Positions 6,421-41,817 of a DNA stretch of 64,000 nucleotides are shown here, piece after piece. Below the pieces are notes generated by a model that was not told the DNA's origin, did no database searches, and saw only the letters and a program-made list of their open reading frames with translations. Source of the stretch: Echinometra lucunter (taxonomy: Eukaryota; Echinodermata; Echinoidea; Camarodonta; Echinometridae). The stretch spans positions 20,510,745 to 20,574,744 of the forward strand of contig CM057165.1 in the NCBI GenBank assembly GCA_029962745.1, in the 5' to 3' direction. How positions within the stretch are numbered: the first letter of the stretch is position 1; every line of letters starts with the position of its first letter. The position numbers were made by a program, and so were the translations under genes.

Positions 6421-6469
<49 letters not shown>

Positions 6470-10532: not shown

Positions 10533-10550
10533 TCTTTCAATTTTTTACAG

Positions 10551-10676
10551 ATATCGATGAATGTGCATCAGATAGTGCGAACGATTGTGACGCCATGGCT
10601 TCGTGTTTGGATAACGAGGGAAGTTATACATGCTCATGCAATACTGGATACCAGGGTGACGGAATGACATGCACAA
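10551..10676 (+). CDS. cbEGF exon 1
   Basis: Most divergent visible unit: ID class, with ASDSANDCDAM and CLDN. Its acceptor TTTTTTACAG lies 18 bases after a Helentron-like terminus. Confidence 0.9.
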
Positions 10677-13610: not shown

Positions 13611-13653
<43 letters not shown>

Positions 13654-15235: not shown

Positions 15236-15266
<31 letters not shown>

Positions 15267-18200
15267 AGAAAAAGAAAGAGAAAAGAAAGAAAAGGGAAAG
15301 AAGGAAGTGAAATGAAAGCGGAAAACAGGGGAAAAGAAAGTAAATGGGACACTGGCAGGGAAGCGCTCGCTCGCTTCGCTCGCTCGCATTTAAGTATCTT
15401 AACCAATGCCGATGATAATTACTATTCTCATGAAAGGAAATCGGTTTGCATCTACAGTTCCTGTCTAATGTTATACTATTCTCCTACTCATAGGAAGTAA
15501 TATAACCAAACAAGATATCACTCCAAGAAATCGAACGGCCAGTTGACCTAAAAATAGATACACTTTCAGTAGATAACGGCCTAGATTTAAAAACAAAACA
15601 AACATATTTTTCGTTAGCTCGCTCGCTACTCTCGCTGTTAAAAGCTAGATACAAGATGATTTCGGGCAGCAAGTAGATTATCATAGCAGCGAGATTCCAA
15701 AATATCATAATATTTGGGCAGTAATGGGGTTGAAAAAAATTTGGTGACGAATCCATATAATTTTGCCGGGATCGGACGTTGACTTTGCTTGCTAGCTAAT
15801 GGTAGAAACAGAATGGATTCGGACTGCAAGCCAGGTAGCTAAAACAGTGTCATATTCGGCACACTGGTGATCGGATGTATTATTTAGATATCATACAGGC
15901 ATGACAGGTTTATATTGTATTCTGATGATGATAATGATAACATTCCGTTCTTGTATAGCGCATTATCACATTATTATGATGACGAAATAACACTGCTATC
16001 ATATGGAAAAGGGTATATTTTTCCTCACTCGCTACACTCGCTCGTTTGATATTAATGGTTTTGAAAAGCAAACGAATTCGGTAAGTGAGATGAGACCGAA
16101 TAGATAATGTAGATGTTTCATGGGCTCACAGTGTAATTTGCCGAAGGGGTTACTACTTCTACCATCAAAAACAGTGTGGGATTCCTCGCTCGCTTCGCTC
16201 GCTCGTAATATTAAAAAAACAAGAGTGGTTCGGGGGTAGCAAAAATGGACCAGCGATGTGACAAAAAGAGTCATATTTGGCAGCGAAGTAACCATATATA
16301 TATATATATATTAGGTATCATATATGCCTATAGTGTATTTTGATAACTAAACACTTCTCTCATAACAAGAAATTTGTTATNNNNNNNNNNNNNNNNNNNN
16401 NNNNNNNNNNNNNNNNNNNNNNNNNNNNNNNNNNNNNNNNNNNNNNNNNNNNNNNNNNNNNNNNNNNNNNNNNNNNNNNNNNNNNNNNNNNNNNNNNNNN
16501 NNNNNNNNNNNNNNNNNNNNNNNNNNNNNNNNNNNNNNNNNNNNNNNNNNNNNNNNNNNNNNNNNNNNNNNNNNNNNNNNNNNNNNNNNNNNNNNNNNNN
16601 NNNNNNNNNNNNNNNNNNNNNNNNNNNNNNNNNNNNNNNNNNNNNNNNNNNNNNNNNNNNNNNNNNNNNNNNNNNNNNNNNNNNNNNNNNNNNNNNNNNN
16701 NNNNNNNNNNNNNNNNNNNNNNNNNNNNNNNNNNNNNNNNNNNNNNNNNNNNNNNNNNNNNNNNNNNNNNNNNNNNNNNNNNNNNNNNNNNNNNNNNNNN
16801 NNNNNNNNNNNNNNNNNNNNNNNNNNNNNNNNNNNNNNNNNNNNNNNNNNNNNNNNNNNNNNNNNNNNNNNNNNNNNNNNAAGGTAATTCTCCGTTGTCT
16901 GAGAATTATTTTCTTTGCCATTTTCTATATGGCTAACATGGCTAAAGTCATTTCAGTGGCAACTCTGTTTCAAACAAAACTATCAATAATTTGTGATATA
17001 TACAGTGCTTGTTTTCATTAAATCTATTACAGATATCGATGAATGTGCATCAGATAATACGAACAATTGTCACACCATGGCTTCGTGTTCGGACAACGAG
17101 GGAAGTTATACATGCTCATGCAATACTGGATACCAGGGTGACGGTATGACTTGCTCAAGTAAGTAAGACCATTGATGTTTCTGATAACGAAGAGAAAAAT
17201 GCGAATGAATTAGCATCTGTAAGTAACAGATTTTGTTAAAACGCAAAGAAGGATGTATTAAATCTGATTATGACTTCAGTATATTTCGAGTCTGAGATGT
17301 AATTTTTCATTGCCTGGCAATCATTGTCTTTGTCGTTTCCTATATCGCTAAAGCAAATTTAAAGGAAAATCCTTTTCAAACAAAACTATCAATAAGTTGT
17401 AATATATACAGTGCTTGTTTTCATTAAATCTTTTACAGATATCGATGAATGTGCATCAGATAATACGAACAATTGTCACGCCATGGCTTCGTGTTCGGAC
17501 AACGAGGGAAGTTATACATGCTCATGTAATGCTGGATACCAGGGTGACGGAATGACGTGCACAAGTAAGTAAGACTATTGATGTTTCTGATTAACGAAGA
17601 GGAAAATGCGAATGGATTAGTATCCGTAAGTATAGTAACAGATTTTGTTAAAACGCAATGAAAGATGTATTAGACTTGATTTTGATCTCATTATATATTG
17701 CGAGTGTCAAAGAGCGCTATAAGAAGGTAATTGTCCGTTGTCTCATAATCATTTTCTTTGCCATTTTTATATGGTTAAATCCAATTTACAGGCAACTTTG
17801 TTTCAAACAAAACTATCAATAAGTTGTAATATATACAGTGCTTGTTTTCATTAAATCTTTTACAGATATCAATGAATGTGCATCAGATAATACGAACAAT
17901 TGTCACACCATGGCTTCATGTTCGGACAACGAGGGAAGTTATACATGCTCATGCAATACTGGATACCAGGGTGACGGAGTGACGTGCACAAGTAAGTAAG
18001 ACCATTGATGTTTCTGATTAACGAAGAGGAAAATGCGAATGAATTAGCATCTGTAAGTAAAGAAACAGTTTTTGTTAAAACGCAAAGAAGGATGTATTAG
18101 ACTTGATTTTGATTTGAGTATATTTCGAGTCTCAAAGAGCGCTACAAGAAGGTAATTCTCCGTTGTCTGAGAATTATTTTCTTTGCCATTTTCTATATGG

Positions 18201-21200
18201 CTAACATGGCTAAAGCCAATTCAGGGGTAACTCTGTTTCAAACAAAACCATCAATAAGTTGTAATATATAGAATGCTTGTTTTCTTGAATTCTTTTACAG
18301 ATATCGATGAATGTGCATCAGATAATACGAACAATTGTCACACCATGGCTTCGTGTTCGGACAACGAGGGAAGTTATACATGCTCATGCAATACTGGATA
18401 CCAGGGTGACGGAATGACGTGCACAAGTAAGTAAGACCATTGATGTTTCTGACAATGAAGAGAAAAATGCGAAGAAATTAGCATCTGTAAGTAAAGTAAC
18501 AGTTTTTCTTAAAACGTAAAGAAGTATGATAGACTTGATTTTCATCTCACTATATATTTCGAGTGTCAAAGTGCGCTATAAGAAGGTAATTCTCCTTTGT
18601 CTGAGAATCATTTTCTTTGCCATTTCTATATGGTTAGAACTAATTTGGAGGCTACTCTCTTTCAAACAAAACTATCAATAAGTTGTAATATTTAGAATGC
18701 TTGTTTTCTTGAAATCTTTTACAGATATCGATGAATGTGCATCAGATAATACGAACAATTGTCACACCATGGCTTCGTGTTCGGACAACGAGGGAAGTTA
18801 TACATGCTCATGCAATACTGGATACCAGGGTGACGGAATGACGTGCACAAGTAAGTAAGACCATTGATGTTTCTGACAACGAAGAGAAAAATGCGAATGA
18901 ATTAGTATCCGTAAGTATAGTAACAGATTTTGTTAAAATGCAATAACAGATGTATTAGACTTGATTTTGATCTCTTTATATATTGCGAGTGTCAAAGAGC
19001 GCTATAAGAAGGTAATTGTCCATTGTCTCATAATCATTTTCTTTGCCATTTTTATATGGTTAAATCCAATTTTACAGGCAACTTTGTTTCAAACAAAACT
19101 ATCAATAAGTTGCAATATATACAATGCTTGTTTTCTTGAAATCTTTTACAGATATCAATGAATGTGCATCAGATAATACGAACAATTGTCACACCATGGC
19201 TTCGTGTTCGGACAACGAGGGAAGTTATACATGCTCATGCAATACTGGATACCAGGGTGACGGAATGACTTGCTCAAGTAAGTAAGACCACTGATGTTTC
19301 TGATAACGAAGAGAAAAATGCGAATGAATTAGCATCTGTAAGTAAAGTAACAGTTTTTGTTAAAACGCAAAGAAGGATGTATGAAACTTGATTATGATTT
19401 TAGTATATTTCGAGTATCAAAGAGCGCTATAAAAATGCAATTCTCCTTTGTCTGAGAATCATTTTCTTTGCCTTTTCGATATGGCTAAAGCCAGTTTAGA
19501 GGCAACCCTGTTTCAAACAAAACTATCAATAAGTTGCAATATATACAATGCTTGTTTTCTTGAAATCTTTTACAGATATCGATGAATGTGCATCAGATAA
19601 TACGAACAATTGTCACGCCATGGCTTCGTGTTTGGACAACGAGGGAAGTTATACATGCTCATGCAATACTGGATACCAGGGTGACGGTATGACTTGCTCA
19701 AGTAAGTAAGACCACTGATGTTTCTGATAACGTAGAGAAAAATACGAATGAATTAGCATCTGAAGTAAAGAAACAGTTTTTGTTAAAACGCAAAGAAGGA
19801 TGTATTAGACTTGATTTTGATTTGAGTATATTTCGAATGTCAAAGTGCGCTATAAGAAGGTAATTGTCCGTTGTCTCATAATCATTTTCTTTGCCATTTT
19901 TATATGGTTAAATCCAATTTACAGGCAACTTTGTTTCAAACAAAACTATCAATAAGTTGTAATATATAGAATGCTTGTTTTCTTGAAATCTTTTACAGAT
20001 ATCGATGAATGTGCATCAGATAATACGAACAATTGTCACGCCATGGCTTCGTGTTCGGACAACGAGGGAAGTTATACATGTTCATGCAATACTGGATACC
20101 AGGGTGACGGAATGACGTGCACAAGTAAGTAAGACTATTGATGTTTCTGATAACGTAGAGAAAAATGCGAATGAATTAGTATCCGTAAGTATAGTAACAG
20201 ATTTTGTTAAAATGGAATAACAGATGTATTAGACTTGATTTTGATCTCATTATATATTGCGAGTGTCAAAGAGCGCTACAAGAAGGTAATTCTCCGTTGT
20301 CTGAGAATTATTTTCTTTGCCATTTTCTATATGGCTAACATGGCTAAAGCCAATTCAGGGGCAACTCTGTTTCAAACAAAACTATCAATAAGTTGTAATA
20401 TATAGAATGCTTGTTTTCTTGAAATCTTTTACAGATATCAATGAATGTGCATCAGATAATACGAACAATTGTCACACCATGGCTTCGTGTTCGGACAACG
20501 AGGGAAGTTATACATGCTCATGCAATACTGGATACCAGGGTGACGGTATGACTTGCTCAAGTAAGTAAGACCACTGATGTTTCTGATAACGAAGAGAAGA
20601 ATACGAATGAATTAGCATCTGAAGTAAAGTAACAGTGTTTGTTAAAACGCAAAGAAGGATGTATTAAACTTGATTATGATTTTAGTATATTTCGAGTCTC
20701 AAAGAGCGCTATAAAAATGCAATTCTCCTTTGTCTGAGAATCATTTTCTTTGCCTTTTCGATATGGTTAAAGCCAGTTTAGAGGCAACCCTGTTTCAAAC
20801 AAAACTATCAATAAGTTGTAATATATAGAATGCTTGTTTTCTTGAAATCTTTTACAGATATCAATGAATGTGCATCAGATAATACGAACAATTGTCACAC
20901 CATGGCTTCGTGTTCGGACAACGAGGGAAGTTATACATGCTCATGCAATACTGGATACCAGGGTGACGGAATGACGTGCACAAGTAAGTAAGACTATTGA
21001 TGTTTCTGATAACGTAGAGAAAAATGCGAATGAATAAGTATAGTAACAGATTTTGTTAAAATGCAATGAGAGATGTATTAGACTTGATTTTGATCTCATT
21101 ATATATTTCGAGTGTCGAAGAGCGCTATAAGAAGGTAATTGTCCATTGTCTCATAATCATTTTCTTTGCCATTTTTATATGGTTAAATCCAATTTACAGG

Positions 21201-24200
21201 CAACTTTGTTTCAAACAAAACTATCAATAGGTTGTAATATATAGAATGCTTGTTTTCTTGAAATCTTTTACAGATATCAATGAATGTGCATCAGATAATA
21301 CGAACAATTGTCACACCATGGCTTCGTGTTCGGACAACGAGGGAAGTTATACATGCTCATGCAATACTGGATACCAGGGTGACGGAATGACGTGCACAAG
21401 TAAGTAAGACCATTGATGTTTCTGACAACGAAGAGAAAAATGCGAATGAATTAGTATCCGTAAGTATAGTAACAGATTTTGTTAAAATGCAAAAACAGAT
21501 GTATTAGACTTGATTTTGATCTCTTTATATATTGCGAGTGTCAAAGAGCGCTATAAGAAGGTAATTGTCCATTGTCTCATAATCATTTTCTTTGCCATTT
21601 TTATATGGTTAAATCCAATTTTACAGGCAACTTTGTTTCAAACAAAACTATCAATAAGTTGTAATATACAGAATGCTTGTTTTCTTGAAATCTTTTACAG
21701 ATATCAATGAATGTGCATCAGATAATACGAACCATTGTCACACCATGGCTTCGTGTTCGGACAACGAGGGAAGTTATACATGCTCATGCAATACTGGATA
21801 CCAGGGTGACGGAATGACGTGCACAAGTAAGTAAGACCATTGATGTTTCTGATTAACGAAGAGGAAAATGCGAATGAATTAGCATCTGTAAGTAAAGAAA
21901 CAGTTTTTGTTAAAACGCAAAGAAGGATGTATTAGACTTGATTTTGATTTGAGTATATTTCGAATGTCAAAGTGCGCTATAAGAAGGTAATTGTCCGTTG
22001 TCTCATAATCATTTTCTTTGCCATTTTTATATGGTTAAATCCAATTTACAGGCAACTTTGTTTCAAACAAAACTATCAATAAGTTGTAATATATAGAATG
22101 CTTGTTTTCTTGAAATCTTTTACAGATATCGATGAATGTGCATCAGATAATACGAACAATTGTCACGCCATGGCTTCGTGTTCGGACAACGAGGGAAGTT
22201 ATACATGCTCATGCAATACTGGATACCAGGGTGACGGAATGACGTGCACAAGTAAGTAAGACTATTGATGTTTCTGATAACGTAGAGAAAAATGCGAATG
22301 AATTAGTATCCGTAAGTATAGTAACAGATTTTGTTAAAATGGAATAACAGATGTATTAGACTTGATTTTGATTTGAGTATATTTCGAGTCTCAAAGAGCG
22401 CTACAAGAAGGTAATTCTCCGTTGTCTGAGAATTATTTTCTTTGCCATTTTCTATATGGCTAACATGGCTAAAGCCAATGCAGGGGCAACTCTGTTTCAA
22501 ACAAAACTATCAATAAGTTGTAATATATAGAATGCTTGTTTTCTTGAAATCTTTTACAGATATCAATGAATGTGCATCAGATAATACGAACAATTGTCAC
22601 ACCATGGCTTCGTGTTCGGACAACGAGGGAAGTTATACATGCTCATGCAATACTGGATACCAGGGTGACGGAATGACGTGCACAAGTAAGTAAGACCATT
22701 GATGTTTCTGATTAACGAAGAGGAAAATGCGAATGAATTAGCATCTGTAAGTAAAGAAACAGTTTTGTTAAAACGCAAAGAAGGATATATTAGACTTGAT
22801 TTTCATCTCATTATATATTGCGAGTGTCAAAGAGCGCTATAAGAAGGTAATTGTCCATTGTCTCATAATCATTTTCTTTGTCTTTTCGATATGGCTAAAG
22901 CCAGTTTAGAGGCAACTTTGTTTCAAACAAAACTATCAATAAGTTGTAATATATAGAATGCTTGTTTTCTTGAAATTTTTTACAGATATCAATGAATGTG
23001 CATCAGATAATACGAACAATTGTCACACCATGGCTTCGTGTTCGGACAACGAGGGAAGTTATACATGCTCATGCAATACTGGATACCAGGGTGACGGAAT
23101 GACGTGCACAAGTAAGTAAGACCATTGATGTTTCTGATTAACGAAGAGGAAAACGCCAATGAATTAGCATCTGTAAGTAAAGAAACAGTTTTTGTTAAAA
23201 CGCAAAGAAGGATGTATTACACTTGATTTTGATTTGAGTATATTTCGAGTCTCAAAGAGCGCTACAAGAAGGTAATTCTCCGTTGTCTGAGAATTGTTTT
23301 CTTTGCCATTTTCTATATGGCTAACATGGCTAAAGCCAATTCAGGGGCAACTCTGTTTCAAACAAAACTATCAATAAGTTGTAATATATAGAATGCTTGT
23401 TTTCTTGAAATCTTTTACAGATATCAATGAATGTGCATCAGATAATACGAACAATTGTCACACCATGGCTTCGTGTTCGGACAACGAGGGAAGTTATACA
23501 TGCTCATGCAATACTGGATACCAAGGTGACGGAATGACGTGCACAAGTAAGTAAGACCATTGATGTTTCAGATTAACGAAGAGGAAAATGCGAATGAATT
23601 AGCATCTGTAAGTAAAGAAACAGTTTTTGTTAAAACGCAAAGAAGGATGTATTAGACTTGATTTTGATTTGAGTATATTTCGAGTCTCAAAGAGCGCTAC
23701 AAGAAGGTAATTCTCCGTTGTCTGAGAATTATTTTCTTTGCCATTTTCTATATGGCTAACATGGCTAAAGCCAATTCAGGGGCAACTCTGTTTCAAACAA
23801 AACTATCAATAAGTTGTAATATATAGAATGCTTGTTTTCTTGAAATCTTTTACAGATATCAATGAATGTGCATCAGATAATACGAACAATTGTCACACCA
23901 TGGCTTCGTGTTCGGACAACGAGGGAAGTTATACATGCTCATGCAATACTGGATACCAGGGTGACGGAATGACGTGCACAAGTAAGTAAGACCATTGATG
24001 TTTCTGATTAACGAAGAGGAAAATGCGAATGAATTAGCATCTGTAAGTAAAGAAACAGTTTTTGTTAAAACGCAAAGAAGGATATATTAGACTTGATTTT
24101 CATCTCATTATATATTGCGAGTGTCAAAGAGCGCTATAAGAAGGTAATTGTCCATTGTCTCATAATCATTTTCTTTGTCTTTTCGATATGGCTAAAGCCA

Positions 24201-27200
24201 GTTTAGAGGCAACTTTGTTTCAAACAAAACTATCAATAAGTTGTAATATATAGAATGCTTGTTTTCTTGAAATTTTTTACAGATATCAATGAATGTGCAT
24301 CAGATAATACGAACAATTGTCACAGCATGGCTTCGTGTTCGGACAACGAGGGAAGTTATACATGCTCATGCAATACTGGATACCAGGGTGACGGAATGAC
24401 GTGCACAAGTAAGTAAGACCATTGATGTTTCTGATTAACGAAGAGGAAAACGCGAATGAATTAGCATCTGTAAGTAAAGAAACAGTTTTTGTTAAAACGC
24501 AAAGAAGGATGTATTACACTTGATTTTGATTTGAGTATATTTCGAGTCTCAAAGAGCGCTACAAGAAGGTAATTCTCCGTTGTCTGAGAATTGTTTTCTT
24601 TGCCATTTTCTATATGGCTAACATGGCTAAAGCCAATTCAGGGGCAACTCTGTTTCAAACAAAACTATCAATAAGTTGTAATATATAGAATGCTTGTTTT
24701 CTTGAAATCTTTTACAGATATCAATGAATGTGCATCAGATAATACGAACAATTGTCACACCATGGCTTCGTGTTCGGACAACGAGGGAAGTTATACATGC
24801 TCATGCAATAATGGATACCAGGGTGACGGAATGAGGTGCACAAGTAAGTAAGACTATTGATGTTTCTGATAACGTAGAGAAAAATACGAATGAATTAGTA
24901 TCCGTAAGTATAGTAACAGATTTTGTTAAAATGCAATGAGAGATGTATTAGACTTGATTTTGATTTGAGTATATTTCGAGTCTCAAAGAGCGCTACAAGA
25001 AGGTAATTGTCCGTTGTCTCATAATCATTTTCTTTGCCATTTTTATATGGTTAAATCCAATTTAGAGGCAACTTTGTTTCAAACAAAACTATCAATAAGT
25101 TGTAATATATAGAATACTTTTTTTCTTGAAATCTTTTACAGATATCAATGAATGTGCATCAGATAATACGAACAATTGTCACACCATGGCTTCGTGTTCG
25201 GACAACGAGGGAAGTTATACATGCTCATGCAATACGGGATACCAGGGTGATGGAATGACGTGCACAAGTAAGTAAGACCATTGATGTTTCAGATTAACGA
25301 AGAGGAAAATGCGAATGAATTAGCATCTGTAAGTAAAGAAACAGTTTTTGTTAAAACGCAAAGAAGGATGTATTACACTTGATTTTGATTTGAGTATATT
25401 TCGAGTCTCAAAGAGCGCTACAAGAAGGTAATTCTCCGTTGTCTGAGAATTATTTTCTTTGCCATTTTCTATATGGCTAACATGGCTAAAGCCAATTCAG
25501 GGGCAACTCTGTTTCAAACAAAACTATCAATAAGTTGTAATATATAGAATGCTTGTTTTCTTGAAATCTTTTACAGATATCAATGAATGTGCATCAGATA
25601 ATACGAACAATTGTCACACCATGGCTTCGTGTTCGGACAACGAGGGAAGTTATACATGCTCATGCAATAATGGATACCAGGGTGACGGAATGAGGTGCAC
25701 AAGTAAGTAAGACTATTGATGTTTCTGATAACGTAGAGAAAAATACGAATGAATTAGTAGCCGTAAGTATAGTAACAGATTTTGTTAAAATGCAATGAGA
25801 GATGTATTAGACTTGATTTTGATTTGAGTATATTTCGAGTCTCAAAGAGCGCTACAAGAAGGTAATTGTCCATTGTCTCATAATCATTTTCTTTGCCATT
25901 TTTATATGGTTAAATCCAATTTACAGGCAACTTTGTTTCAAACAAAACTATCAATAAGTTGTAATATAAAGAATGCTTTTTTTCTTGAAATCTTTTACAG
26001 ATATCAATGAATGTGCATCAGATAATACGAACAATTGTCACACCATGGCTTCGTGTTCGGACAACGAGGGAAGTTATACATGCTCATGCAATACTGGATA
26101 CCAGGGTGACGGAATGACGTGCACAAGTAAGTAAGACCATTGATATTTCTGATTAACGAAGAGGAAAATGCGAATGAATTAGCATCTGTAAGTAAAGAAA
26201 CAGTTTTTGTTAAAACGCAAAGAAGGATGTATTAGACTTGATTTTGATCTCATTATATATTGCGAGTGTCAAAGAGCAATATAAGAAGGTAATTGTCCAT
26301 TGTCTCATAATCATTTTCTTTGCCATTTTTATATGGTTAAATCCAATTTACAGGCAACTTTGTTTCAAACAAAACTATCAATAAGTTGTAATATATAGAA
26401 TGCTTGTTTTCTTGAAATCTTTTACAGATATCGATGAATGTGCATCAGATAATACGAACAATTGTCACGCCATGGCTTCGTGTTCGGACAACGAGGGAAG
26501 TTATACATGCTCATGCAATACTGGATACCAGGGTGACGGAATGACGTGCACAAGTAAGTAAGACTATTGATGTTCTGATAGCGTAGAGAAAATGCGAATG
26601 AATAAGTATAGTAACAGATTTTGTTAAAATGCAATGAGAGATGTATTAGACTTGATTTTGATCTCATTATATATTGCGAGTGTCAAGAGCATATAAGAAG
26701 GTAATTGTCCATTGTCTCATAATCATTTTCTTTGCCATTTTATATGGTTAAATCCAATTTACAGGCAACTTTGTTTCAAACAAAACTATCAATAAGTTGT
26801 AATATATAGAATGCTTGTTTTCTTGAAATCTTTTACAGATATCGATGAATGTGCATCAGATAATACGAACAATTGTCACGCCATGGCTTCGTGTTCGGAC
26901 AACGAGGGAAGTTATACATGCTCATGCAATACTGGATACCAGGGTGACGGAATGACGTGCACAAGTAAGTAAGACTATTGATGTTTCTGATAGCGTAGAG
27001 AAAAATGCGAATGAATAAGTATAGTAACAGATTTTGTTAAAATGCAATGAGAGATGTATTAGACTTGATTTTGATCTCATTATATATTTCGAGAGTCGAA
27101 GAGCGCTATAAGAAGGTAATTGTCCATTGTCTCATAATCATTTTCTTTGCCATTTTTATATGGTTAAATCCAATTTACAGGCAACTTTGTTTCAAACAAA

Positions 27201-30200
27201 ACTATCAATATGTTGTAATATATAGAATGCTTGTTTTCTTGAAATCTTTTACAGATATCAATGAATGTGCATTAGATAATACGAACAATTGTCACACCAT
27301 GGCTTCGTGTTCGGACAACGAGGGAAGTTATACATGCTCATGCAATACTGGATACCAGGGTGACGGAATGACGTGCACAAGTAAGTAAGACCATTGATGT
27401 TTCTGATTAACGAAGAGGAAAATGCCAATGAATTAGCATCTGTAAGTAAAGAAACAGTTTTTGTTAAAACGCAAAGAAGGATATATTAGACTTGATTTTC
27501 ATCTCATTATATATTGCGAGTGTCAAAGAGCGCTATAAGAAGGTAATTGTCCATTGTCTCATAATCATTTTCTTTGCCTTTTCGATATGGCTAAAGCCAG
27601 TTTAGAGGCAACTTTGTTTCAAACAAAACTATCAATAAGTTGTAATATATAGAATGCTTGTTTTCTTGAAATTTTTTACAGATATCAATGAATGTGCATC
27701 AGATAATACGAACAATTGTCACACCATGGCTTCGTGTTCGGACAACGAGGGAAGTTATACATGCTCATGCAATACTGGATACCAGGGTAATGGAATGACG
27801 TGCACAAGTAAGTAAGACTATTGATGTTTCTGATAACGTAGAGAAAAATGCGAATGAATAAGTATAGTAACAGATTTTGTTAAAATGCAATGAGAGATTT
27901 ATTAGACTTGATTTTGATCTCATTATATATTTCGAGTGTCGAAGAGCGCTATAAGAAGGTAATTGTCCATTGTCTCATAATCATTTTCTTTGCCTTTTCG
28001 ATATGGCTAAAGCCAGTTTAGAGGCAACTTTGTTTCAAACAAAACTATCAATAAGTTGTAATATATAGAATGCTTGTTTTCTTGAAATTTTTTACAGATA
28101 TCAATGAATGTGCATCAGATAATACGAACAATTGTCACACCATGGCTTCGTGTTCGGACAACGAGGGAAGTTATACATGCTCATGCAATACTGGATACCA
28201 GGGTGACGGAATGACGTGCACAAGTAAGTAAGATTATTGATGTTTCTGATAACGTAGAGAAAAATGCGAATGAATAAGTATAGTAACAGATTTTGTTAAA
28301 ATGCAATGAGAGATGTATTAGACTTGATTTTGATCTCATTATATATTTCGAGTGTCGAAGAGCGCTATAAGAAGGTAATTGTCCATTGTCTCATAATCAT
28401 TTTCTTTGCCATTTTTATATGGTTAAATCCAATTTTACAGGCAACTTTGTTTCAAACAAAACTATCAATAAGTTGTAATATACAGAATGCTTGTTTTCTT
28501 GAAATCTTTTACAGATATCAATGAATGTGCATCAGATAATACGAACAATTGTCACACCATGGCTTCGTGTTCGGACAACGAGGGAAGTTATACATGCTCA
28601 TGCAATACTGGATACCAGGGTGACGGAATGACGTGCACAAGTAAGTAAGACCATTGATGTTTCTGATTAACGAAGAGGAAAATGCGAATGAATTAGCATC
28701 TGTAAGTAAAGAAACAGTTTTTGTTAAAACGCAAAGAAGGATATATTAGACTTGATTTTCATCTCATTATATATTGCGAGTGTCAAAGAGCGCTATAAGA
28801 AGGTAATTGTCCATTGTCTCATAATCATTTTCTTTGCCTTTTCGATATGGCTAAAGCCAGTTTAGAGGCAACTTTGTTTCAAACAAAACTATCAATAAGT
28901 TGTAATATATAGAATGCTTGTTTTCTTGAAATTTTTTACAGATATCAATGAATGTGCATCAGATAATACGAACAATTGTCACACCATGGCTTCGTGTTCG
29001 GACAACGAGGGAAGTTATACATGCTCATGCAATACTGGATACCAGGGTGACGGAATGACGTGCACAAGTAAGTAAGACTATTGATGTTTCTGATAACGTA
29101 GAGAAAAATGCGAATGAATAAGTATAGTAACAGATTTTGTTAAAATGCAATGAGAGATGTATTAGACTTGATTTTGATCTCATTATATATTTCGAGTGTC
29201 GAAGAGCGCTATAAGAAGGTAATTGTCCATTGTCTCATAATCATTTTCTTTGCCATTTTTATATGGTTAAATCCAATTTTACAGGCAACTTTGTTTCAAA
29301 CAAAACTATCAATAAGTTGTAATATACAGAATGCTTGTTTTCTTGAAATCTTTTACAGATATCAATGAATGTGCATCAGATAATACGAACAATTGTCACA
29401 CCATGGCTTCGTGTTCGGACAACGAGGGAAGTTATACATGCTCATGCAATACTGGATACCAGGGTGACGGAATGACGTGCACAAGTAAGTAAGACCATTG
29501 ATGTTTCTGATTAACGAAGAGGAAAATGCGAATGAATTAGCATCTGTAAGTAAAGAAACAGTTTTTGTTAAAACGCAAAGAAGGATCTATTAAACTTGAT
29601 TATGATTTGAGTATATTTGGAGTCTCAAAGAGCGCTATAAAAGTGCATCTCTCCTTTGTCTGAGAATCATTTTCTTTTCCTTTTCGATATGGGTAAAGCC
29701 AGTTTAGAGGCAACCGTGTTTCAAACAAAACTATCAATAAGTTCCAATATATACAATGCTTGTTTTCCTGAAATATTTTACAGATATCGATGAATGTGCA
29801 TCAGATAATACGAACAATTGTCACACCATGGCTTCGTGTTCGGACAACGAGGGAAGTTATACATGCTCATGCAATACTGGATACCAGGGTGACGGAATGA
29901 CGTGCACAAGTAAGTAAGACCGTTGATGTTTCTGATTAACGAAGAGGAAAATGCGAATGAATTAGCATCTGTAAGTAAAGAAACAGTTTTTGTTAAAACG
30001 CAAAGAAGGATGTATTAGACTTGATTTTGATTTGAGTATATTTCGAGTCTCAAAGAGCGCTACAAGAAGGTAATTCTCCGTTGTCTGAGAATTATTTTCT
30101 TTCCCATTTTCTATATGGGTAACATGGCTAAAGCCAATTCAGAGGCAACTCTGTTTCAAACAAAACCATCAATTAGTTGTAATATATACAATGCTTGTTT

Positions 30201-33200
30201 TCTTGAAATCTTTTACAGATATCGATGAATGTGCAACAGATAATACGAACAATTGTCACGCCATGGCTTCGTGTACGGACAACGAGGGAAGTTATACATG
30301 CTCATGCAATACTGGATACCAGGGTGACGGAATGACGTGCACAAGTAAGTAAGACCATTGATGTTTCAGATTAACGAAGAGGAAAATGCGAATGAATTAG
30401 CATCTGTAAGTAAAGAAACAGTTTTTGTTAAAACGCAAAGAAGGATGTATTAGACTTGATTATGATTTTAGTATATTTCGAGTCTCAAAGAGCGCTACAA
30501 GAAGGTAATTGTCCGTTGTCTCATAATCATTTTCTTTGCCATTTTTATATGGTTAAATCCAATTTACAGGCAACTTTGTTTCAAACAAAACTATCAATAA
30601 GTTGTAATATATAGAATGCTTGTTTTCTTGAAATCTTGTACAGATATCAATGAATGTGCATCAGATAATACGAACAATTGTCACACCATGGCTTCGTGTT
30701 CGGACAACGAGGGAAGTTATACATGCTCATGCAATACTGGATACCAGGGTGACGGAATGACGTGCACAAGTAAGTAAGACCATTGATGTTTCTGATTAAC
30801 GAAGAGGAAAATGCGAATGAATTAGCATCTGTAAGTAAAGAAACAGTTTTTGTTAAAATGCAAAGAAGGATGTATTAGACTTGATTTTGATTTGAGTATA
30901 TTTCGAGTCTCAAAGAGCGCTACAAGAAGGTAATTCTCCGTTGTCTGAGAATTATTTTCTTTCCCATTTTCTATATGGCTAACATGGCTAAAGCCAATTC
31001 AGAGGCAACTCTGTTTCAAACAAAACCATCAATAAGTTGTAATATATACAATGCTTCTTTTCTTGAAATCTTTTACAGATATCGATGAATGTGCAACAGA
31101 TAATACGAACAATTGTCACGCCATGGCTTCGTGTACGGACAACGAGGGAAGTTATACATGCTCATGCAATACTGGATACCAGGGTGACGGAATGACGTGC
31201 ACAAGTAAGTAAGACCATTGATGTTTCTGACAACGAAGAGAAAAATGCGAAGAAATTAGCATCTGTAAGTAAAGTAACAGTTTTTGTTAAAACGCAAAGA
31301 AGTATGATAGACTTGATTTTCATCTCACTATATATTTCGAGTGTGAAAGTGCGCTATAAGAAGGTAATTGTCCGTTGTCTCATAATCATTTTCTTTGCCA
31401 TTTTTACATGGTTAAATCCAATTTACCGGCAACTTTGTTTCAAACAAAACTATCAATAAGTTGTAATATATAGAATGCTTGTTTTCTTGAAATCTTTTAC
31501 AGATATCGATGAATGTGCATCAGATAATACGAACAATTGTCACACCATGGCTTCGTGTTCGGACAACGAGGGAAGTTATACATGCTCATGCAATACTGGA
31601 TACCAGGGTGACGGTATGACTTGCTCAAGTAAGTAAGACCACTGATGTTTCTGATAACGAAGAGAAAAATGCGAATGAATCAGCATCTGTAAGTAAAGAA
31701 ACAGTTTTTGTTAAAACGCAAAGAAGGATGTATTAGACTTGATTTTGATTTTAGTATGTTTCGAGTCTCAAAGAGCGCTATAAGAAGGTAATTCTCCGTT
31801 TTCTGAGAATTATTTTCTTTGCCATTTTCTATATGGCTAACATGGCTAAAGCCAATTCAGGGGCAACTCTGTTTCAAACAAAACCATCAATAAGTTGTAA
31901 TATATGCAATGCTTCTTTTCTTGAAATCTTTTACAGATATCGATGAATGTGCATCAGATAATACGAACAATTGTCACACCATGGCTTCGTGTTCGGACAA
32001 CGAGGGAAGTTATACATGCTCATGCAATACTGGATACCAGGGTGACGGTATGACTTGCTCAAGTAAGTAAGACCACTGATGTTTCTGATAACGAAGAGAA
32101 AAATGCGAATGAATCAGCATCTGTAAGTAAAGAAACAGTTTTTGTTAAAACGCAAAGAAGGATGTATTAGACTTGATTTTGATTTTAGTATGTTTCGAGT
32201 CTCAAAGAGCGCTATAAGAAGGTAATTCTCCGTTTTCTGAGAATTATTTTCTTTGCCATTTTCTATATGGCTAACATGGCTAAAGCCAATTCAGGGGCAA
32301 CTCTGTTTCAAACAAAACCATCAATAAGTTGTAATATATACAATGCTTGTTTTCTTGAAATCTTTTACAGATATCGATGAATGTGGAACAGGTAATACGA
32401 ACAATTGTCACGCCATGGCTTCGTGTTCGGACAACGAGGGAAGTTATACATGCTCATGCAATACTGGATACCAGGGTGACGGAATGACGTGCACAAGTAA
32501 GAAAGATCATTGATGTTTCTGATAACGAAGAGAAAAATGCGAATGAATTAGCATCTGTAAGTAAAGTAACAGATTTTGTTAAAACGCAAAGAAGGATGTA
32601 TTAAATCTGATTATGATTTCAGTATATTTCGAGTCTGAGATGTAATTTTTCATTACCTAGCAATCATTATCTTTGTCGTTTCCTATATCGCTAAAGCAAA
32701 TTTAAAGGAAAATCCTTTTCAAACAAAACTATCAATAAGTTGTAATATATACAGCGCTTGTTTTCATTAAATCTTTTACAGATATCGATGAATGTGCATC
32801 AGATAATTCGAACAATTGTCACGCCATGGCTTCGTGTTCGGACAACGAGGGAAGTTATACATGCTCATGCAATACTGGATACCAGGGTGACGGAATGACG
32901 TGCACAAGTAAGTAAGACCATTGATGTTTCTGATTAACGAAGAGGAAAATGCGAATGAATTAGCATCTGTAAGTAAAGAAACAGTTTTTGTTAAAACGCA
33001 AAGAAGGATGTATTAGACTTGATTTTGATCTCATTATATATTGCGAGTGTCAAAGAGCGCTATTAGAAGGTAATTGTCCATTGTCTCATAATCATTTTTT
33101 TTGCCATTTTTATATGGTTAAATCCAATTTTACAGGCAACTTTGTTTCAAACAAAACTATCAATAAGTTGTAATATACAGAATGCTTGTTTTCTTGAAAT

Positions 33201-35890
33201 CTTTTACAGATATCAATGAATGTGCATCAGATAATACGAACAATTGTCACACCATGGCTTCGTGTTCGGACAACGAGGGAAGTTATACATGCTCATGCAA
33301 TACTGGATACCAGGGTGACGGAATGACGTGCACAAGTAAGTAAGACCATTGATGTTTCTGATTAACGAAGAGGAAAATGCGAATGAATTAGCATCTGTAA
33401 GTAAAGAAACAGTTTTTGTTAAAACGCAAAGAAGGATATATTAGACTTGATTTTCATCTCATAATATATTGCGAGTGTCAAAGAGCGCTATAAGAAGGTA
33501 ATTGTCCATTGTCTCATAATCATTTTCTTTGCCTTTTCGATATGGCTAAAGCCAGTTTAGAGGCAACTTTGTTTCAAACAAAACTATCAATAAGTTGTAA
33601 TATATAGAATGCTTGTTTTCTTGAAATTTTTTACAGATATCAATGAATGTGCATCAGATAATACGAACAATTGTCACACCATGGCTTCGTGTTCGGACAA
33701 CGAGGGAAGTTATACATGCTCATGCAATACTGGATACCAGGGTGACGGAATGACGTGCACAAGTAAGTAAGACTATTGATGTTTCTGATAACGTAGAGAA
33801 AAATGCGAATGAATAAGTATAGTAACAGATTTTGTTAAAATGCAATGAGAGATGTATTAGACTTGATTTTGATCTCATTATATATTTCGAGTGTCGAAGA
33901 GCGCTATAAGAAGGTAATTGTCCATTGTCTCATAATCATTTTCTTTGCCTTTTCGATATGGCTAAAGCCAGTTTAGAGGCAACTTTGTTTCAAACAAAAC
34001 TATCAATAAGTTGTAATATATAGAATGCTTGTTTTCTTGAAATTTTTTACAGATATCAATGAATGTGCATCAGATAATACGAACAATTGTCACACCATGT
34101 CTTCGTGTTCGGACAACGAGGGAAGTTATACATGCTCATGCAATACTGGATACCAGGGTGACGGAATGACGTGCACAAGTAAGTAAGACTATTGATGTTT
34201 CTGATAACGTAGAGAAAAATGCGAATGAATAAGTATAGTAACAGATTTTGTTAAAATGCAATGAGAGATGTATTAGACTTGATTTTGATCTCATTATATA
34301 TTTCGAGTGTCGAAGAGCGCTATAAGAAGGTAATTGTCCATTGTCTCATAATCATTTTCTTTGCCATTTTTATATGGTTAAATCCAATTTTACAGGCAAC
34401 TTTGTTTCAAACAAAACTATCAATAAGTTGTAATATACAGAATGCTTGTTTTCTTGAAATCTTTTACAGATATCAATGAATGTGCATCAGATAATACGAA
34501 CAATTGTCACACCATGGCTTCGTGTTCGGACAACGAGGGAAGTTATACATGCTCATGCAATACTGGATACCAGGGTGACGGAATGACGTGCACAAGTAAG
34601 TAAGACCATTGATGTTTCTGATTAACGAAGAGGAAAATGCGAATGAATTAGCATCTGTAAGTAAAGAAACAGTTTTTGTTAAAACGCAAAGAAGGATGTA
34701 TTAGACTTGATTTTGATTTGAGTATATTTCGAGTCTCAAAGAGCGCTACAAGAAGGTAATTCTCCGTTGTCTGAGAATTATTTTCTTTCCCATTTTCTAT
34801 ATGGGTAACATGGCTAAAGCCAATTCAGAGGCAACTCTGTTTCAAACAAAACCATCAATAAGTTGTAATATATACAATGCTTGTTTTCTTGAAATCTTTT
34901 ACAGATATCGATGAATGTGCAACAGATAATACGAACAATTGTCACGCCATGGCTTCGTGTACGGACAACGAGGGAAGTTATACATGCTCATGCAATACTG
35001 GATACCAGGGTGACGGAATGACGTGCACAAGTAAGTAAGACCATTGATGTTTCAGATTAACGAAGAGGAAAATGCGAATGAATTAGCATCTGTAAGTAAA
35101 GAAACAGTTTTTGTTAAAACGCAAAGAAGGATGTATTAGACTTGATTATGATTTTAGTATATTTCGAGTCTCAAAGAGCGCTACAAGAAGGTAATTGTCC
35201 GTTGTCTCATAATCATTTTCTTTGCCATTTTTATATGGTTAAATCCAATTTACAGGCAACTTTGTTTCAAACAAAACTATCAATAAGTTGTAATATATAG
35301 AATGCTTGTTTTCTTGAAATCTTGTACAGATATCAATGAATGTGCATCAGATAATACGAACAATTGTCACACCATGGCTTCGTGTTCGGACAACGAGGGA
35401 AGTTATACATGCTCATGCAATACTGGATACCAGGGTGACGGAATGACGTGCACAAGTAAGTAAGACCATTGATGTTTCTGATTAACGAAGAGGAAAATGC
35501 GAATGAATTAGCATCTGTAAGTAAAGAAACAGTTTTTGTTAAAATGCAAAGAAGGATGTATTAGACTTGATTTTGATTTGAGTATATTTCGAGTCTCAAA
35601 GAGCGCTACAAGAAGGTAATTCTCCGTTGTCTGAGAATTATTTTCTTTCCCATTTTCTATATGGCTAACATGGCTAAAGCCAATTCAGAGGCAACTCTGT
35701 TTCAAACAAAACCATCAATAAGTTGTAATATATACAATGCTTCTTTTCTTGAAATCTTTTACAGATATCGATGAATGTGCAACAGATAATACGAACAATT
35801 GTCACGCCATGGCTTCGTGTACGGACAACGAGGGAAGTTATACATGCTCATGCAATACTGGATACCAGGGTGACGGAATGACGTGCACAA
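10551..35890 (+). CDS. Tandem calcium-binding EGF exon array (47 visible exons, partial gene)
   Basis: Each 126-bp exon starts after a ttttacag-type acceptor and ends CAA or ACAA before gtaagtaag. Splicing is phase 1 on both sides, so exons join in frame in any number. The junction codon A|AT gives Asn, so each unit reads N-I-D/N-E-C, then cysteines 2 to 6, 42 residues per domain and 1974 visible residues. The start N-I-D/N-E and the C-x-N-x4-Y-x-C segment (CSDNEGSYTC) fit the cbEGF calcium-binding and Asn/Asp-hydroxylation consensus. Known for the family: secreted or cell-surface rods stabilised by calcium, as in fibrillins and Notch-type proteins. Signal peptide, N-terminal exons and C-terminal anchor are not visible. 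Two classes dominate: IN with HTM, and ID with HAM. Introns of about 280-310 bp are almost as conserved as exons. Reading through any donor gives TSK and a stop. The array is cut by fixed-size gaps at both sides. Which named gene this is cannot be decided here. Confidence 0.9.
10972..11097 (+). CDS. cbEGF exon 2
   Basis: ID class, ASDNANDCDAM, CSDN. It shares the NDCDAM variant only with exon 1, so the pair forms a distinct subfamily. Downstream intron is interrupted by transposons and a gap. Confidence 0.9.
11378..12719 (+). mobile_element. Helentron-like element, copy 2 (complete ends)
   Basis: Left end TTAGGTGGTCTGTCA begins at 11377/11378 and forms a 13-bp stem hairpin with TGACAGATCACCT. 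The same terminal sequence occurs inverted near the right end at 12675-12688, followed by the hairpin ATTCGTC/GACGAAT and a short tail ending ATATCTCG. The element lies between T and T with no target duplication. Asymmetric terminal inverted repeats, a 3' hairpin and T|T insertion are described features of Helentron/Helitron2 elements. No Rep/helicase is present, so it is non-autonomous. It interrupts the intron after EGF exon 2. Confidence 0.7.
13041..13113 (-). other. tRNA-Val(CAC)-like sequence, probable SINE head
   Basis: On the minus strand a box-B match GGTTCGACTCC and the anticodon-arm-like CTTGCCTCACATGC (anticodon CAC) are visible. The acceptor stem does not pair and the anticodon stem is imperfect. 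It is followed by a T-rich tail, as in a tRNA-derived SINE. Unlikely to be a working tRNA. Confidence 0.5.
13614..13666 (+). repeat. Poly-T then poly-G tract
   Basis: More than 35 T followed by about 14 G. Length may be unreliable in the assembly. Confidence 0.9.
14401..15189. other. Intronic or intergenic sequence, no gene seen
   Basis: AT-rich with a poly-G run near 14660. An open frame on the minus strand at its right end is driven by a TTTC-rich tract and shows no domain. Confidence 0.5.
15190..16380 (+). mobile_element. hAT-like family copy, truncated at both ends
   Basis: Follows the same order as the element at 5080-6578 from its poly-C segment onward. It includes the TTAACCAATGCCGATGAT block, the GACCTAAAAATAGATA block and the clustered CTCGCTCGCTTCGCTCGCTC motifs. 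The left terminal inverted repeat is absent and the right end is lost in the gap at 16381. Confidence 0.7.
16381..16880. other. Assembly gap of exactly 500 N
   Basis: A round-number placeholder, so true size is unknown. The right side resumes inside an EGF-array intron; the left side is transposon. Confidence 1.
17033..17158 (+). CDS. cbEGF exon 3
   Basis: ID, HTM, ends MTCS. The following intron is the rare D class (TTTTTCATTGCCTGGCAATC). Confidence 0.92.
17439..17564 (+). CDS. cbEGF exon 4
   Basis: ID, HAM, unique CNAGY in place of CNTGY. Confidence 0.92.
17866..17991 (+). CDS. cbEGF exon 5
   Basis: IN, HTM, unique DGVTC in place of DGMTC. Confidence 0.92.
18301..18426 (+). CDS. cbEGF exon 6
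   Basis: ID, HTM, MTCT. Confidence 0.92.
18725..18850 (+). CDS. cbEGF exon 7
   Basis: ID, HTM, MTCT. Confidence 0.92.
19152..19277 (+). CDS. cbEGF exon 8
   Basis: IN, HTM, ends MTCS. Confidence 0.92.
19576..19701 (+). CDS. cbEGF exon 9
   Basis: ID, HAM, CLDN (shared only with exon 1), ends MTCS. Confidence 0.92.
19999..20124 (+). CDS. cbEGF exon 10
   Basis: ID, HAM, MTCT; one silent change in a cysteine-flanking Ser codon run. Confidence 0.92.
20435..20560 (+). CDS. cbEGF exon 11
   Basis: IN, HTM, ends MTCS. Confidence 0.92.
20858..20983 (+). CDS. cbEGF exon 12
   Basis: IN, HTM, MTCT: the majority (reference) exon sequence. Confidence 0.92.
21274..21399 (+). CDS. cbEGF exon 13
   Basis: Majority sequence, identical by eye to exon 12. 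Confidence 0.92.
21701..21826 (+). CDS. cbEGF exon 14
   Basis: IN, HTM; unique NTNHC in place of NTNNC. Confidence 0.92.
22126..22251 (+). CDS. cbEGF exon 15
   Basis: ID, HAM, MTCT. Confidence 0.92.
22560..22685 (+). CDS. cbEGF exon 16
   Basis: Majority sequence. Confidence 0.92.
22986..23111 (+). CDS. cbEGF exon 17
   Basis: Majority sequence; acceptor tract AATTTTTTACAG, linked to the C-class intron. Confidence 0.92.
23421..23546 (+). CDS. cbEGF exon 18
   Basis: Majority protein; one silent change (CAA for CAG-like position in GYQG). Confidence 0.92.
23856..23981 (+). CDS. cbEGF exon 19
   Basis: Majority sequence; preceded by an A-class intron of the longest spacing (435 bp unit). Confidence 0.92.
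24283..24408 (+). CDS. cbEGF exon 20
   Basis: IN; unique HSM in place of HTM; acceptor AATTTTTTACAG. Confidence 0.92.
24718..24843 (+). CDS. cbEGF exon 21
   Basis: IN, HTM; double variant CNNGY and GMRC shared only with exon 23. Confidence 0.92.
25142..25267 (+). CDS. cbEGF exon 22
   Basis: Majority protein with two silent changes. Confidence 0.92.
25577..25702 (+). CDS. cbEGF exon 23
   Basis: CNNGY and GMRC as in exon 21, 859 bp upstream: marks a two-unit duplication. Confidence 0.92.
26001..26126 (+). CDS. cbEGF exon 24
   Basis: Majority sequence. Confidence 0.92.
26428..26553 (+). CDS. cbEGF exon 25
   Basis: ID, HAM. The following intron has several single-base losses (unit only 411 bp). 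Confidence 0.92.
26839..26964 (+). CDS. cbEGF exon 26
   Basis: ID, HAM; same exon sequence as exon 25. Confidence 0.92.
27255..27380 (+). CDS. cbEGF exon 27
   Basis: IN, HTM; unique CALDN in place of CASDN. Confidence 0.92.
27682..27807 (+). CDS. cbEGF exon 28
   Basis: IN, HTM; unique GNGM in place of GDGM. Confidence 0.92.
28098..28223 (+). CDS. cbEGF exon 29
   Basis: Majority sequence; C-class intron before it. Confidence 0.92.
28515..28640 (+). CDS. cbEGF exon 30
   Basis: Majority sequence; B-class intron with AATTTTACAG and AATATACAG before it. Confidence 0.92.
28942..29067 (+). CDS. cbEGF exon 31
   Basis: Majority sequence; C-class intron before it. Confidence 0.92.
29359..29484 (+). 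CDS. cbEGF exon 32
   Basis: Majority sequence; upstream intron nearly the same as that before exon 30. Confidence 0.92.
29784..29909 (+). CDS. cbEGF exon 33
   Basis: ID, HTM; preceded by an unusual C-like intron and acceptor ATATTTTACAG. Confidence 0.92.
30219..30344 (+). CDS. cbEGF exon 34
   Basis: ID, ATDN, HAM, CTDN. This variant set recurs in exons 36, 45 and 47. Confidence 0.92.
30644..30769 (+). CDS. cbEGF exon 35
   Basis: Majority exon; rare acceptor CTTGTACAG shared only with exon 46. Confidence 0.92.
31079..31204 (+). CDS. cbEGF exon 36
   Basis: ID, ATDN, HAM, CTDN; upstream ATGCTTCTTTTC variant shared with exons 38 and 47. Confidence 0.92.
31503..31628 (+). CDS. cbEGF exon 37
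   Basis: ID, HTM, ends MTCS. Confidence 0.92.
31937..32062 (+). CDS. cbEGF exon 38
   Basis: ID, HTM, MTCS; flanking introns before and after match each other closely, indicating a one-unit duplication. Confidence 0.92.
32371..32496 (+). CDS. cbEGF exon 39
   Basis: ID, HAM; unique CGTGN, which replaces CASDN; donor is gtaagaaag, not gtaagtaag. Followed by a D-class intron. Confidence 0.92.
32782..32907 (+). CDS. cbEGF exon 40
   Basis: ID, HAM; unique DNSNNC in place of DNTNNC. Confidence 0.92.
33210..33335 (+). CDS. cbEGF exon 41
   Basis: Majority sequence; starts a block equivalent to exons 27-30. Confidence 0.92.
33637..33762 (+). CDS. cbEGF exon 42
   Basis: Majority sequence; C-class intron before it. 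Confidence 0.92.
34053..34178 (+). CDS. cbEGF exon 43
   Basis: IN; unique HTMSSC in place of HTMASC. Confidence 0.92.
34470..34595 (+). CDS. cbEGF exon 44
   Basis: Majority sequence; upstream intron as before exons 30 and 32. Confidence 0.92.
34905..35030 (+). CDS. cbEGF exon 45
   Basis: ID, ATDN, HAM, CTDN; partner of exon 34. Confidence 0.92.
35330..35455 (+). CDS. cbEGF exon 46
   Basis: Majority exon with acceptor CTTGTACAG; partner of exon 35. Confidence 0.92.
35765..35890 (+). CDS. cbEGF exon 47
   Basis: ID, ATDN, HAM, CTDN; partner of exon 36. The next intron is cut by the gap at 36026. Confidence 0.92.
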
Positions 35891-36025
35891 GTAAGTAAGA
35901 CCATTGATGTTTCTGACAACGAAGAGAAAAATGCGAAGAAATTAGCATCTGTAAGTAAAGTAACAGTTTTTGTTAAAACGCAAAGAAGTATGATAGACTT
36001 GATTTTCATCTCACTATATATTTCG

Positions 36026-37095: not shown

Positions 37096-37103
37096 CATTC
37101 AAT

Positions 37104-37314
37104 CAGGGGCAGCACCAGGGTATTCTGATACTGGGGGGGGGGGGGGGCAAGATGACCTACAGGTCAGTTTATGTTTTAAATGAATAGGGGTATCATAATT
37201 CATATAGTCGCATGACCCAGCCCTCTCTTTCCCCATACCCTTCTTTCTTCTTTCTCTTTTTGAAAAATCACAGAAGGTTGCCCCCCCCCCCCCCCCCCTG
37301 TAGCACCACCCCTG
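37104..37314. mobile_element. hAT-like MITE, 211 bp
   Basis: Starts CAGGGGCAGCACCAGGG and ends with an imperfect inverse, CACCACCCCTG. Flanking octamers CATTCAAT (37096-37103) and CAGTCAAT (37315-37322) match at seven of eight bases, fitting a decayed 8-bp TSD. Contains poly-G and poly-C tracts. Confidence 0.6.
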
Positions 37315-41213: not shown

Positions 41214-41268
<55 letters not shown>

Positions 41269-41812: not shown

Positions 41813-41817
41813 CTCAT

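Follow-up and report, generated by a model that had tools for sequence, protein, structure and literature searches.

What keeps a long run of coding units nearly identical, and does the copying between them treat exon and intron alike? These questions are raised by a tandem array of EGF exons in the sea urchin Echinometra lucunter, within a stretch of 64,000 nucleotides that we call the window (NCBI GenBank assembly GCA_029962745.1, contig CM057165.1, positions 20,510,745 to 20,574,744 of the forward strand; coordinates below are those of the window). As a rule, the repeats of long extracellular proteins have aged beyond the point at which their copying can be traced; in this array, a short exon alternates with 44 complete introns that serve as recorders, and block duplication, short-tract conversion and selection are thereby separable in one locus. 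The reading we favor, and to which we give slightly better than an even chance, is that the array encodes the calcium-binding EGF (cbEGF) rod of a lectin-headed sea urchin gene, homogenized by unequal crossing-over and by short-tract conversion centered on the exons.

A contig built of EGF exon-intron units

The window consists of three contigs separated by two 500-N gaps, with the array occupying the whole of the middle contig. Our analysis is based on this one assembled sequence, in which the array contig is bounded by a gap on each side.

16381-16880 and 36026-36525: gaps flanking the array contig, 500 N each
16881..36025, + strand: array contig, made of 45 exon-intron units in tandem, all complete except the last, which the gap cuts (Tandem Repeats Finder, unit parsing)
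17033..17158, + strand: EGF exon 1 of the array contig (126 bp in phase 1-1)
35765..35890, + strand: last (45th) EGF exon of the array contig (unit parsing)
10551..10676, + strand: EGF exon L1, a diverged unit in the left contig (tblastn; Pfam EGF_CA 29.9 bits, cut-off 27)
10972..11097, + strand: EGF exon L2, also in the left contig (tblastn; Pfam EGF_3 33.8 bits, cut-off 28.5)

The original prediction, made from the letters of the window, was that this contig is an array throughout, with 45 units of 406-436 bp that each carry one 126-bp phase 1-1 exon. Repeat finding (period 435, 44.9 copies, 91% matches over 16881-36025) and unit parsing bear this out, with each of the 45 exons measuring exactly 126 bp in phase 1-1 and start-to-start spacings of 406-436 bp. 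Splice borders are equally regular, the acceptor being TTACAG in 43 of 45 units and GTACAG in 2, and the donor GTAAGT in 44 of 45 and GTAAGA in 1; the 45 exons joined in silico encode 1889 amino acids with 0 stops. Unit 37 (32371-32496) is the sole unit with the GTAAGA donor, and it also has GTGN replacing ASDN in the first loop; its nearest relative is unit 1 (3.45% different, the next nearest being at 11%), and it lies 34 array units from its neighbors' types.

Each array unit is predicted from its sequence to be a cbEGF module. Three typed units score 82 bits against Pfam EGF_CA (cut-off 27), with EGF_3 likewise well above its cut-off; this Pfam match rests on the three typed units, the others being covered by sequence pattern instead. 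Six cysteines and the EGF_CA calcium/hydroxylation pattern are kept in 47 of 47 units, i.e., the 45 of the array plus L1 and L2, and an O-fucosylation pattern is likewise present in all 47. The second codon of the array exon encodes D in 18 units and N in 27, both of which the calcium pattern permits. L2 scores 26.6 bits against EGF_CA, slightly under the cut-off of 27.

That the open reading frame is under constraint is well supported. No exon indels were seen where 4.8 would be expected from the introns (P 0.008), and variable sites number 18 of 102 among nonsynonymous positions and 126 of 298 in introns (P 5e-6). The absence of exon indels and stops, together with the shortage of variable nonsynonymous sites, rules out a noncoding satellite. 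We also considered a cassette of mutually exclusive exons like that of Dscam, in favor of which the tandem exons here are equal in length. Since 126-bp phase 1-1 exons are all joinable and 15 of the 45 are identical, so that a choice among those would change nothing, we regard exon choice of this kind as ruled out for practical purposes and extremely doubtful; instead, all array exons would be spliced into one mRNA.

Exons, introns and silent sites differ in their uniformity

The original prediction also held that introns are nearly as similar as exons. Our comparison contradicts this: the mean difference over all pairs is 2.3% for exons and 8.9% for introns, and 41 of the 44 complete introns are distinct, as are 42 of the 44 complete units. 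Among the 45 exons we count 21 distinct sequences, the commonest being common to 15. The exons singled out as identical (12, 13, 16, 17, 19 and 29-32) are so in 9 of 9 cases if L1 and L2 are counted as units 1 and 2; numbered within the array contig alone, the nine comprise 7 different sequences.

The low diversity of the exons extends to their silent sites. Within exons, silent diversity (pS) is 3.1% and amino-acid-changing diversity (pN) 2.2%, giving a pN/pS of about 0.7, and silent third-position diversity is 1.96% (39 sites, with transitions alone counted at twofold sites), against a mean of 8.0% in intron windows of matching site spacing. None of 146 overlapping intron windows was as low, and when intron sites are drawn at random, P is 5e-5 for the full set of silent third positions and 0.038 for the fourfold ones. 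Exons and their silent sites are both low, with a pN/pS of about 0.7, which points to homogenization focused on the exons; the low pS does not fit purifying selection on old copies and fits uniform homogenization poorly. Comparing exon with intron divergence had been proposed as a check, with similar divergence in introns and silent sites expected of recent copying and strongly lower exon divergence expected of selection on old copies; neither outcome was cleanly found, since exons are strongly lower and silent sites are low too. We infer that conversion, and not selection on silent sites, lies behind the uniformity of the exons.

Selection on the silent sites themselves, e.g., for splicing enhancers required by every short exon, would also lower silent diversity, and the exons are indeed short and flanked by AT-rich introns (GC content 44% in array exons, 31% in neighboring introns). 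The counts pull in two directions. By third positions, fewer silent sites are variable than interior intron sites (8/39 vs 120/268, P 0.005), as constraint predicts and as equal exchange of exon and intron does not; by synonymous-site equivalents, silent variants occur at intron-like density (8/24 vs 126/298, P 0.52), which speaks against constraint and for equal exchange. Amino-acid variants are, moreover, tolerated at the same exon positions, and we consider constrained silent sites quite unlikely.

Copying in blocks and in pieces

Units have been copied both several at a time and in part. The following features document the block copies.

30175..31339, + strand: 1165-bp stretch with an exact repeat 4686 bp (11 units) further downstream
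34861..36025, + strand: exact copy of 30175-31339, extending to the gap
33210..36025, + strand: units 39-45, of which 42-44 pair with 31-33, while the exact repeat of 34 accounts for 45

Units 42-44 differ from units 31-33 by 0-0.7%, whereas the 946 unit pairs differ by 7.0% on average. Units 39-41 resemble types that occur at units 25-29: the best match of unit 39 is 28 (0.23%), with 25 also near (0.70%), that of unit 40 is 26 (0.72%), and that of unit 41 is 29 (0.24%), with 27 also near (0.48%). One way to read units 39-45 is as a block copy followed by gain or loss of a few units, as from unequal crossing-over; this parse was made after the distances were known and is not unique. Units 25-34 minus 28-30 would be another possible derivation, likewise not unique given the nearest matches of 39 and 41. 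Tested more generally, series of close pairs that share one spacing gave P values of 0.013 and 0.019 in comparison with 2000 shuffled orders.

Exchange of smaller pieces is recorded in the introns, which are mosaics of few segment types in changing combinations. Among 50 informative sites (63 less 13 columns that lie in two indel-linked runs), all four combinations occur in 857 of 1225 pairs. Neighboring sites clash in 39% of cases, against a mean of 70% in shuffled order, with 0 of 5000 shuffles as low, and this result holds after the 44 units are collapsed to 25 clusters. For pairs of intron sites, r2 averages 0.41 at less than 40 bp but 0.037 at 240-280 bp, where the shuffled null is 0.024. 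This decay, together with the four-combination pairs, shows that inter-unit copying involves sub-unit pieces. The first nine array units are the least homogenized, with a nearest neighbor at 2.65% vs 1.09% (P 0.003; P 0.004 and 0.008 with cuts after 8 and 10 units), as expected from their position near the array edge on the side of the left contig.

The claim of recent expansion or ongoing homogenization thus stands as far as multi-unit copying and exchange are concerned, by the exact repeat, the r2 decay and the mosaic introns; a uniform action on exon and intron fits poorly, since silent sites are low like the exons. The same data dispose of old copies kept alike by purifying selection without recent exchange. 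Such selection would account for 45 exons without indels or stops and with every cysteine kept, but not for distant units with near-identical introns, an exact 1165-bp repeat or association that decays with distance, and the intron data rule it out as a sufficient cause, leaving it next to no probability.

An assembly artefact, i.e., a looped or collapsed repeat or a misplaced contig, is suggested by the position of both contig ends inside the array beside 500-N gaps and by an exact 1165-bp repeat that stops at the gap. Set against this are the distinctness of 42 of the 44 full units and the presence in the left contig of two related same-strand units and of a lectin in the right phase (see below), and we think an artefact improbable.

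Simulated conversion

We simulated an array of 45 units, setting mutation so as to match the diversity of the introns and asking for a silent/intron diversity ratio of at most 0.37, which is about that observed, in 60 runs per setting. Under uniform conversion with most amino-acid changes removed, the ratio stayed near 1, reaching the target in 0 of 60 runs at a mean tract of 80 bp and 1 of 60 at 200 bp; rejecting damaged donors gave the same 0 of 60 (80 bp) and 1 of 60 (200 bp). When three quarters of events began in the exon, 40 of 60 runs reached it at 80 bp and 11 of 60 at 200 bp, and the 80-bp runs gave 3.2% diversity at silent sites, 7.2% in near-exon intron and 13.6% in mid-intron, roughly the observed profile. 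An earlier simulation was discarded for its low intron diversity (1.2-2.2%), under which 17-20 of 60 uniform and background runs met the ratio by noise.

These results bear on uniform concerted evolution, under which exon and intron are exchanged equally and exon uniformity comes from the removal of protein changes. It accounts for the block copies, the mosaic introns and the exon constraint, in addition to the intron-like silent density given by one of the two counts above. Against it stand a pN of 0.7 of pS and a silent diversity of about one third of intron diversity or less, and with at most one simulated run per setting reaching the observed ratio, we consider it unlikely.

Under the reading we favor, exon-sized tracts copied between units would spread one master exon faster than its introns, and unequal exchange would add or remove blocks of units, changing the length of the rod. 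Several of our own results weigh against the exon-centered part of this reading. The 200-bp setting met the ratio in only the 11 runs noted, nonsynonymous diversity in the exon-centered model (0.6-0.9%) falls below the observed 2.2%, and the simulation settings were chosen by hand. Fourfold sites (16) taken alone are matched by 2 of 146 intron windows. Whether silent sites vary less often depends on the counting method; the clearest silent deficit is in frequency, resting on 8 variants, and a recent spread of a single exon type explains it no worse than a steadily faster rate. The rise in diversity away from the exon is weak within the intron (Spearman 0.18), being matched by 4.9% of rotations, and the left half alone gives P 0.18. 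Association across the exon is higher than within introns in 3 of 5 shared distance bins; since it is not consistently lower, there is no sign that exchange ends in the exon, and the idea that exchange ends are concentrated in exons, which predicted lower association there, was rejected.

The main rival is accordingly a selective sweep within the array, in which a favored exon was recently spread by ordinary conversion while the introns retained older variation. Exon variants are mostly rare, as such a sweep predicts (19 of 26 at low frequency, vs 60 of 129 in introns). Fixed sites between L1/L2 and the array point the same way, with 4 in exons (3 of them amino-acid changing) and 1 in introns, vs 26 and 126 variable sites, respectively (P 0.005). 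This contrast comes from two outside units, however, and either side may have changed; a count that lets L1 and L2 differ gives 2 fixed intron sites. The pattern predicted by a sweep is also nearly that of recent exon-centered conversion, and we rate the sweep as somewhat unlikely.

If exon-centered conversion is real, a polymer would be kept uniform and its length varied without strong selection on each unit. A further step, which we put forward tentatively and as well short of probable, is that of a self-correcting polymer, in which exon-centered conversion spreads one master cbEGF exon through dozens of units, outpacing drift, and unequal exchange alters rod length rapidly, yielding a near-homopolymer, lectin-tipped rod whose heritable length differs between individuals.

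Diverged units and Helentron-like elements in the left contig

Relative to the array, L1 and L2 diverge by 7.3% and 4.9%, respectively, in exon sequence and by 10.1% and 13.6% in intron sequence, and they are enclosed by two Helentron-like elements.

9483..10527, + strand: Helentron-like (HINE-like) element with a divergent 5' part and an uncertain start; its end lies in the intron that precedes L1 (boundaries by eye)
11377..12717, + strand: Helentron-like element, beginning in the intron after L2 (boundaries by eye)

The two elements are 93.6% identical over 925 aligned positions, and both meet the intron at the same point, GCTTG^TTTTC, enclosing L1-L2 (10526-11378). Likely, one Helentron-like insertion was copied along with its EGF unit. 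HINEs are described as having subterminal inverted repeats of 12-15 bp, a 3' palindrome and a T-rich insertion site (PMC4067079). The elements here fit this description, with TTAGGTGGTCTGTCA and its inverse close to the 3' end and an 8-bp hairpin; the inverse repeat lies approximately 29-44 bp from the inferred 3' end, compared with 38-60 bp in the mite HINE families described (PMC4067079).

These elements raise the question of whether the array itself was carried as tandem-repeat cargo by a Helentron-type element and spread through rolling-circle copying. L1 and L2 do lie between two Helentron-like elements, and oyster elements of such a type are described as carrying tandem arrays (PMC7492417). 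Nevertheless, the order at this site is 3' end, L1-L2, next 5' end, which places the units outside both elements and not between the modules of one, and a search of the array contig for the word at the element end gave no hit. Cargo at L1/L2 is ruled out by the order of the element ends, and we regard this origin of the array as very unlikely.

Other repeats are present in this contig. A dispersed repeat of approximately 0.9-1.1 kb occurs at 15259-16380, 5189-6298 and 6581-7496, in copies that are 81-85% identical and carry CGCTCGCTACTCTCGC-like motifs, one copy reaching the gap that precedes the array. A minisatellite at 7511-7808 is made of 15-bp units (CGACATTTGCTCCGC, 19 copies) and is open in several frames.

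An upstream lectin and the predicted gene

In a raw-frame scan upstream of these units, Lectin_C matched weakly, at E 0.0086, without reaching the cut-off; read by eye, the match resolves into two exons.

634..734, + strand: predicted C-type lectin exon, the first seen in the window (borders by eye)
1193..1338, + strand: second predicted C-type lectin exon, which carries the EPN and WND motifs and has a phase 1 end

Joined in frame, these exons match Lectin_C at 1.7e-13 (51.7 bits, cut-off 22.6), spanning profile positions 29-105 of 107, and they also match solved C-type lectins; the N-terminal part of the lectin domain was not found in the window. Because the second exon ends in phase 1, it can splice to any array EGF exon. 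We therefore predict, from sequence, a gene comprising a lectin plus at least 47 EGF modules, in which the lectin exons, L1, L2 and the array would belong together across a gap of unknown size. Two points count against this joining: from lectin to EGF it crosses 9.2 kb of mobile-element-rich DNA, with the array beyond a gap, and the chance of a phase match is one in three. On the far side of the array, scans of 36526-46127 and 46001-55602 in the raw + frames yielded no further domains, and nothing exceeded a Pfam cut-off in the raw - frames of 36524-46125.

The product would be a stiff, calcium-stabilized rod, probably secreted and tipped by a lectin head that may anchor it to glycans. A structural or adhesive role is the likeliest guess by analogy, since octovafibrin of octopus and the sea star adhesive protein Sfp1 both combine EGF and C-type lectin domains (for Sfp1, PMC7037938). 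Its lectin-plus-rod layout, like that of the octopus egg-thread protein in outline, would make it a candidate structural or adhesive protein of sea urchins.

Comparison with known systems

A close parallel is the KIV-2 coding variable-number tandem repeat of human LPA, whose unit is described as approximately 5.5 kb with two exons, polymorphic at 1 to >40 copies and expressed (PMC4378929, PMC11462820). Tandem exon-intron units with near-identical exons, the pattern by which we recognize an LPA KIV-2-like array, are what the urchin contig contains. In both cases the units are intragenic, which in LPA is documented (PMC4378929) and here would follow from the single-gene model, with little exon variation, and variants shared between LPA copies have been ascribed to duplication or gene conversion. 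The urchin unit differs in being approximately 425 bp with one exon, and in being known from one assembled sequence. By analogy, the array would thus work like LPA KIV-2, and counting the two as the same kind would require copy number to vary.

Human DMBT1 is similar in that tandem domain units occur in the gene of a secreted protein, with 7-21 SRCR domains between alleles and an effect of length on binding (PMC9038570); its units are SRCR domains with spacers, whereas those of the urchin array are cbEGF. Octovafibrin has two lectin domains around 29 EGF modules and forms load-bearing octopus egg threads (PMC10336842). The likeness would lie in a C-type lectin beside a long EGF run, the lectin exons here being in phase with a gap between. 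None of the octovafibrin EGF modules is reported as calcium-binding, and a lectin is placed at both ends (PMC10336842), whereas 47 of 47 urchin modules fit the calcium-binding pattern and the urchin lectin is upstream, the C-terminal end of the predicted protein lying beyond the sequence seen. As judged by that pattern, the predicted urchin protein is not octovafibrin.

Two further families were considered by their domains, scanning the raw + frames of 1-16380, 36526-46127 and 46001-55602. Fibrillins have long cbEGF runs with TB (8-cysteine) domains among them, and fibropellin has C1s-like N-terminal and avidin-like C-terminal domains. The urchin array shares the long cbEGF runs of fibrillins and differs in that its modules are near-identical. 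No TB, C1s-like or avidin-like domains were found in the frames scanned, a search that could miss intron-split domains and that covers an incomplete gene.

A protein of the brittle star Amphiura filiformis, P0171, has the same lectin-to-EGF order and is 42-44% identical across the junction. Its EGF run (22 scored units, 18 distinct, mean neighbor identity 0.82) is less uniform than the urchin array, which by this measure reaches 0.955 over 44 scored units, 17 of them distinct, and the protein differs in having further domains by accession (kringle, SUEL-type lectin and F5/8C). Neighbor identity in the 188 scorable of 284 retrieved proteins had a median of 0.43 and a maximum of 0.91 (a bacterial protein with 9 units); these 284 are proteins sharing words with our queries, 44 of them via a BTB query (see below), and not a census. 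No near-identical relative of the array was found among the best 120 of 1655 and the best 120 of 3212 matches (29-56% identical), the searches having scored only candidates that share most words. The original prediction was of an exceptionally long EGF rod; what is exceptional here is its uniformity and not the length seen so far.

In a general model of domain-repeat growth, several domains are duplicated at once, often in mid-repeat; that model was built from protein alignments of many families (PMC1553488), whereas in the urchin array the introns record the copying. Searches of the open-licence literature for EGF concerted evolution, sea urchin tandem EGF arrays and a sea urchin coding variable-number tandem repeat found nothing.

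Other features of the window

Scanning the window for tRNAs and, at gathering cut-offs, for Rfam families gave no matches. On the - strand at approximately 37500-37660, we noted by eye a likely coding exon (open frame, splice-like border) with no Pfam match in the frames scanned. A tandem repeat of approximately 54 bp is present in two copies, at 43654-43789 and 44866-44999, 1.2 kb apart. At 55379-56811, one strand is pyrimidine-rich, with nested tandem repeats of 23-124 bp, GC skew to -0.8 and long open + frames.

Two open reading frames on the - strand contain BTB_2 (KCTD-type) stretches, two of them in 61407-62738 and three in 52555-53604. The former matches 44 proteins, of which 27 of the 29 with an organism shown are from Strongylocentrotus, Lytechinus or Diadema, and its best named match has 65% identity over 69% of the query, as is likely for sea urchin DNA. 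The latter contains a 297-bp tandem repeat (52846-53457, 90% matches), which indicates that this BTB_2 gene has likewise grown by internal duplication.

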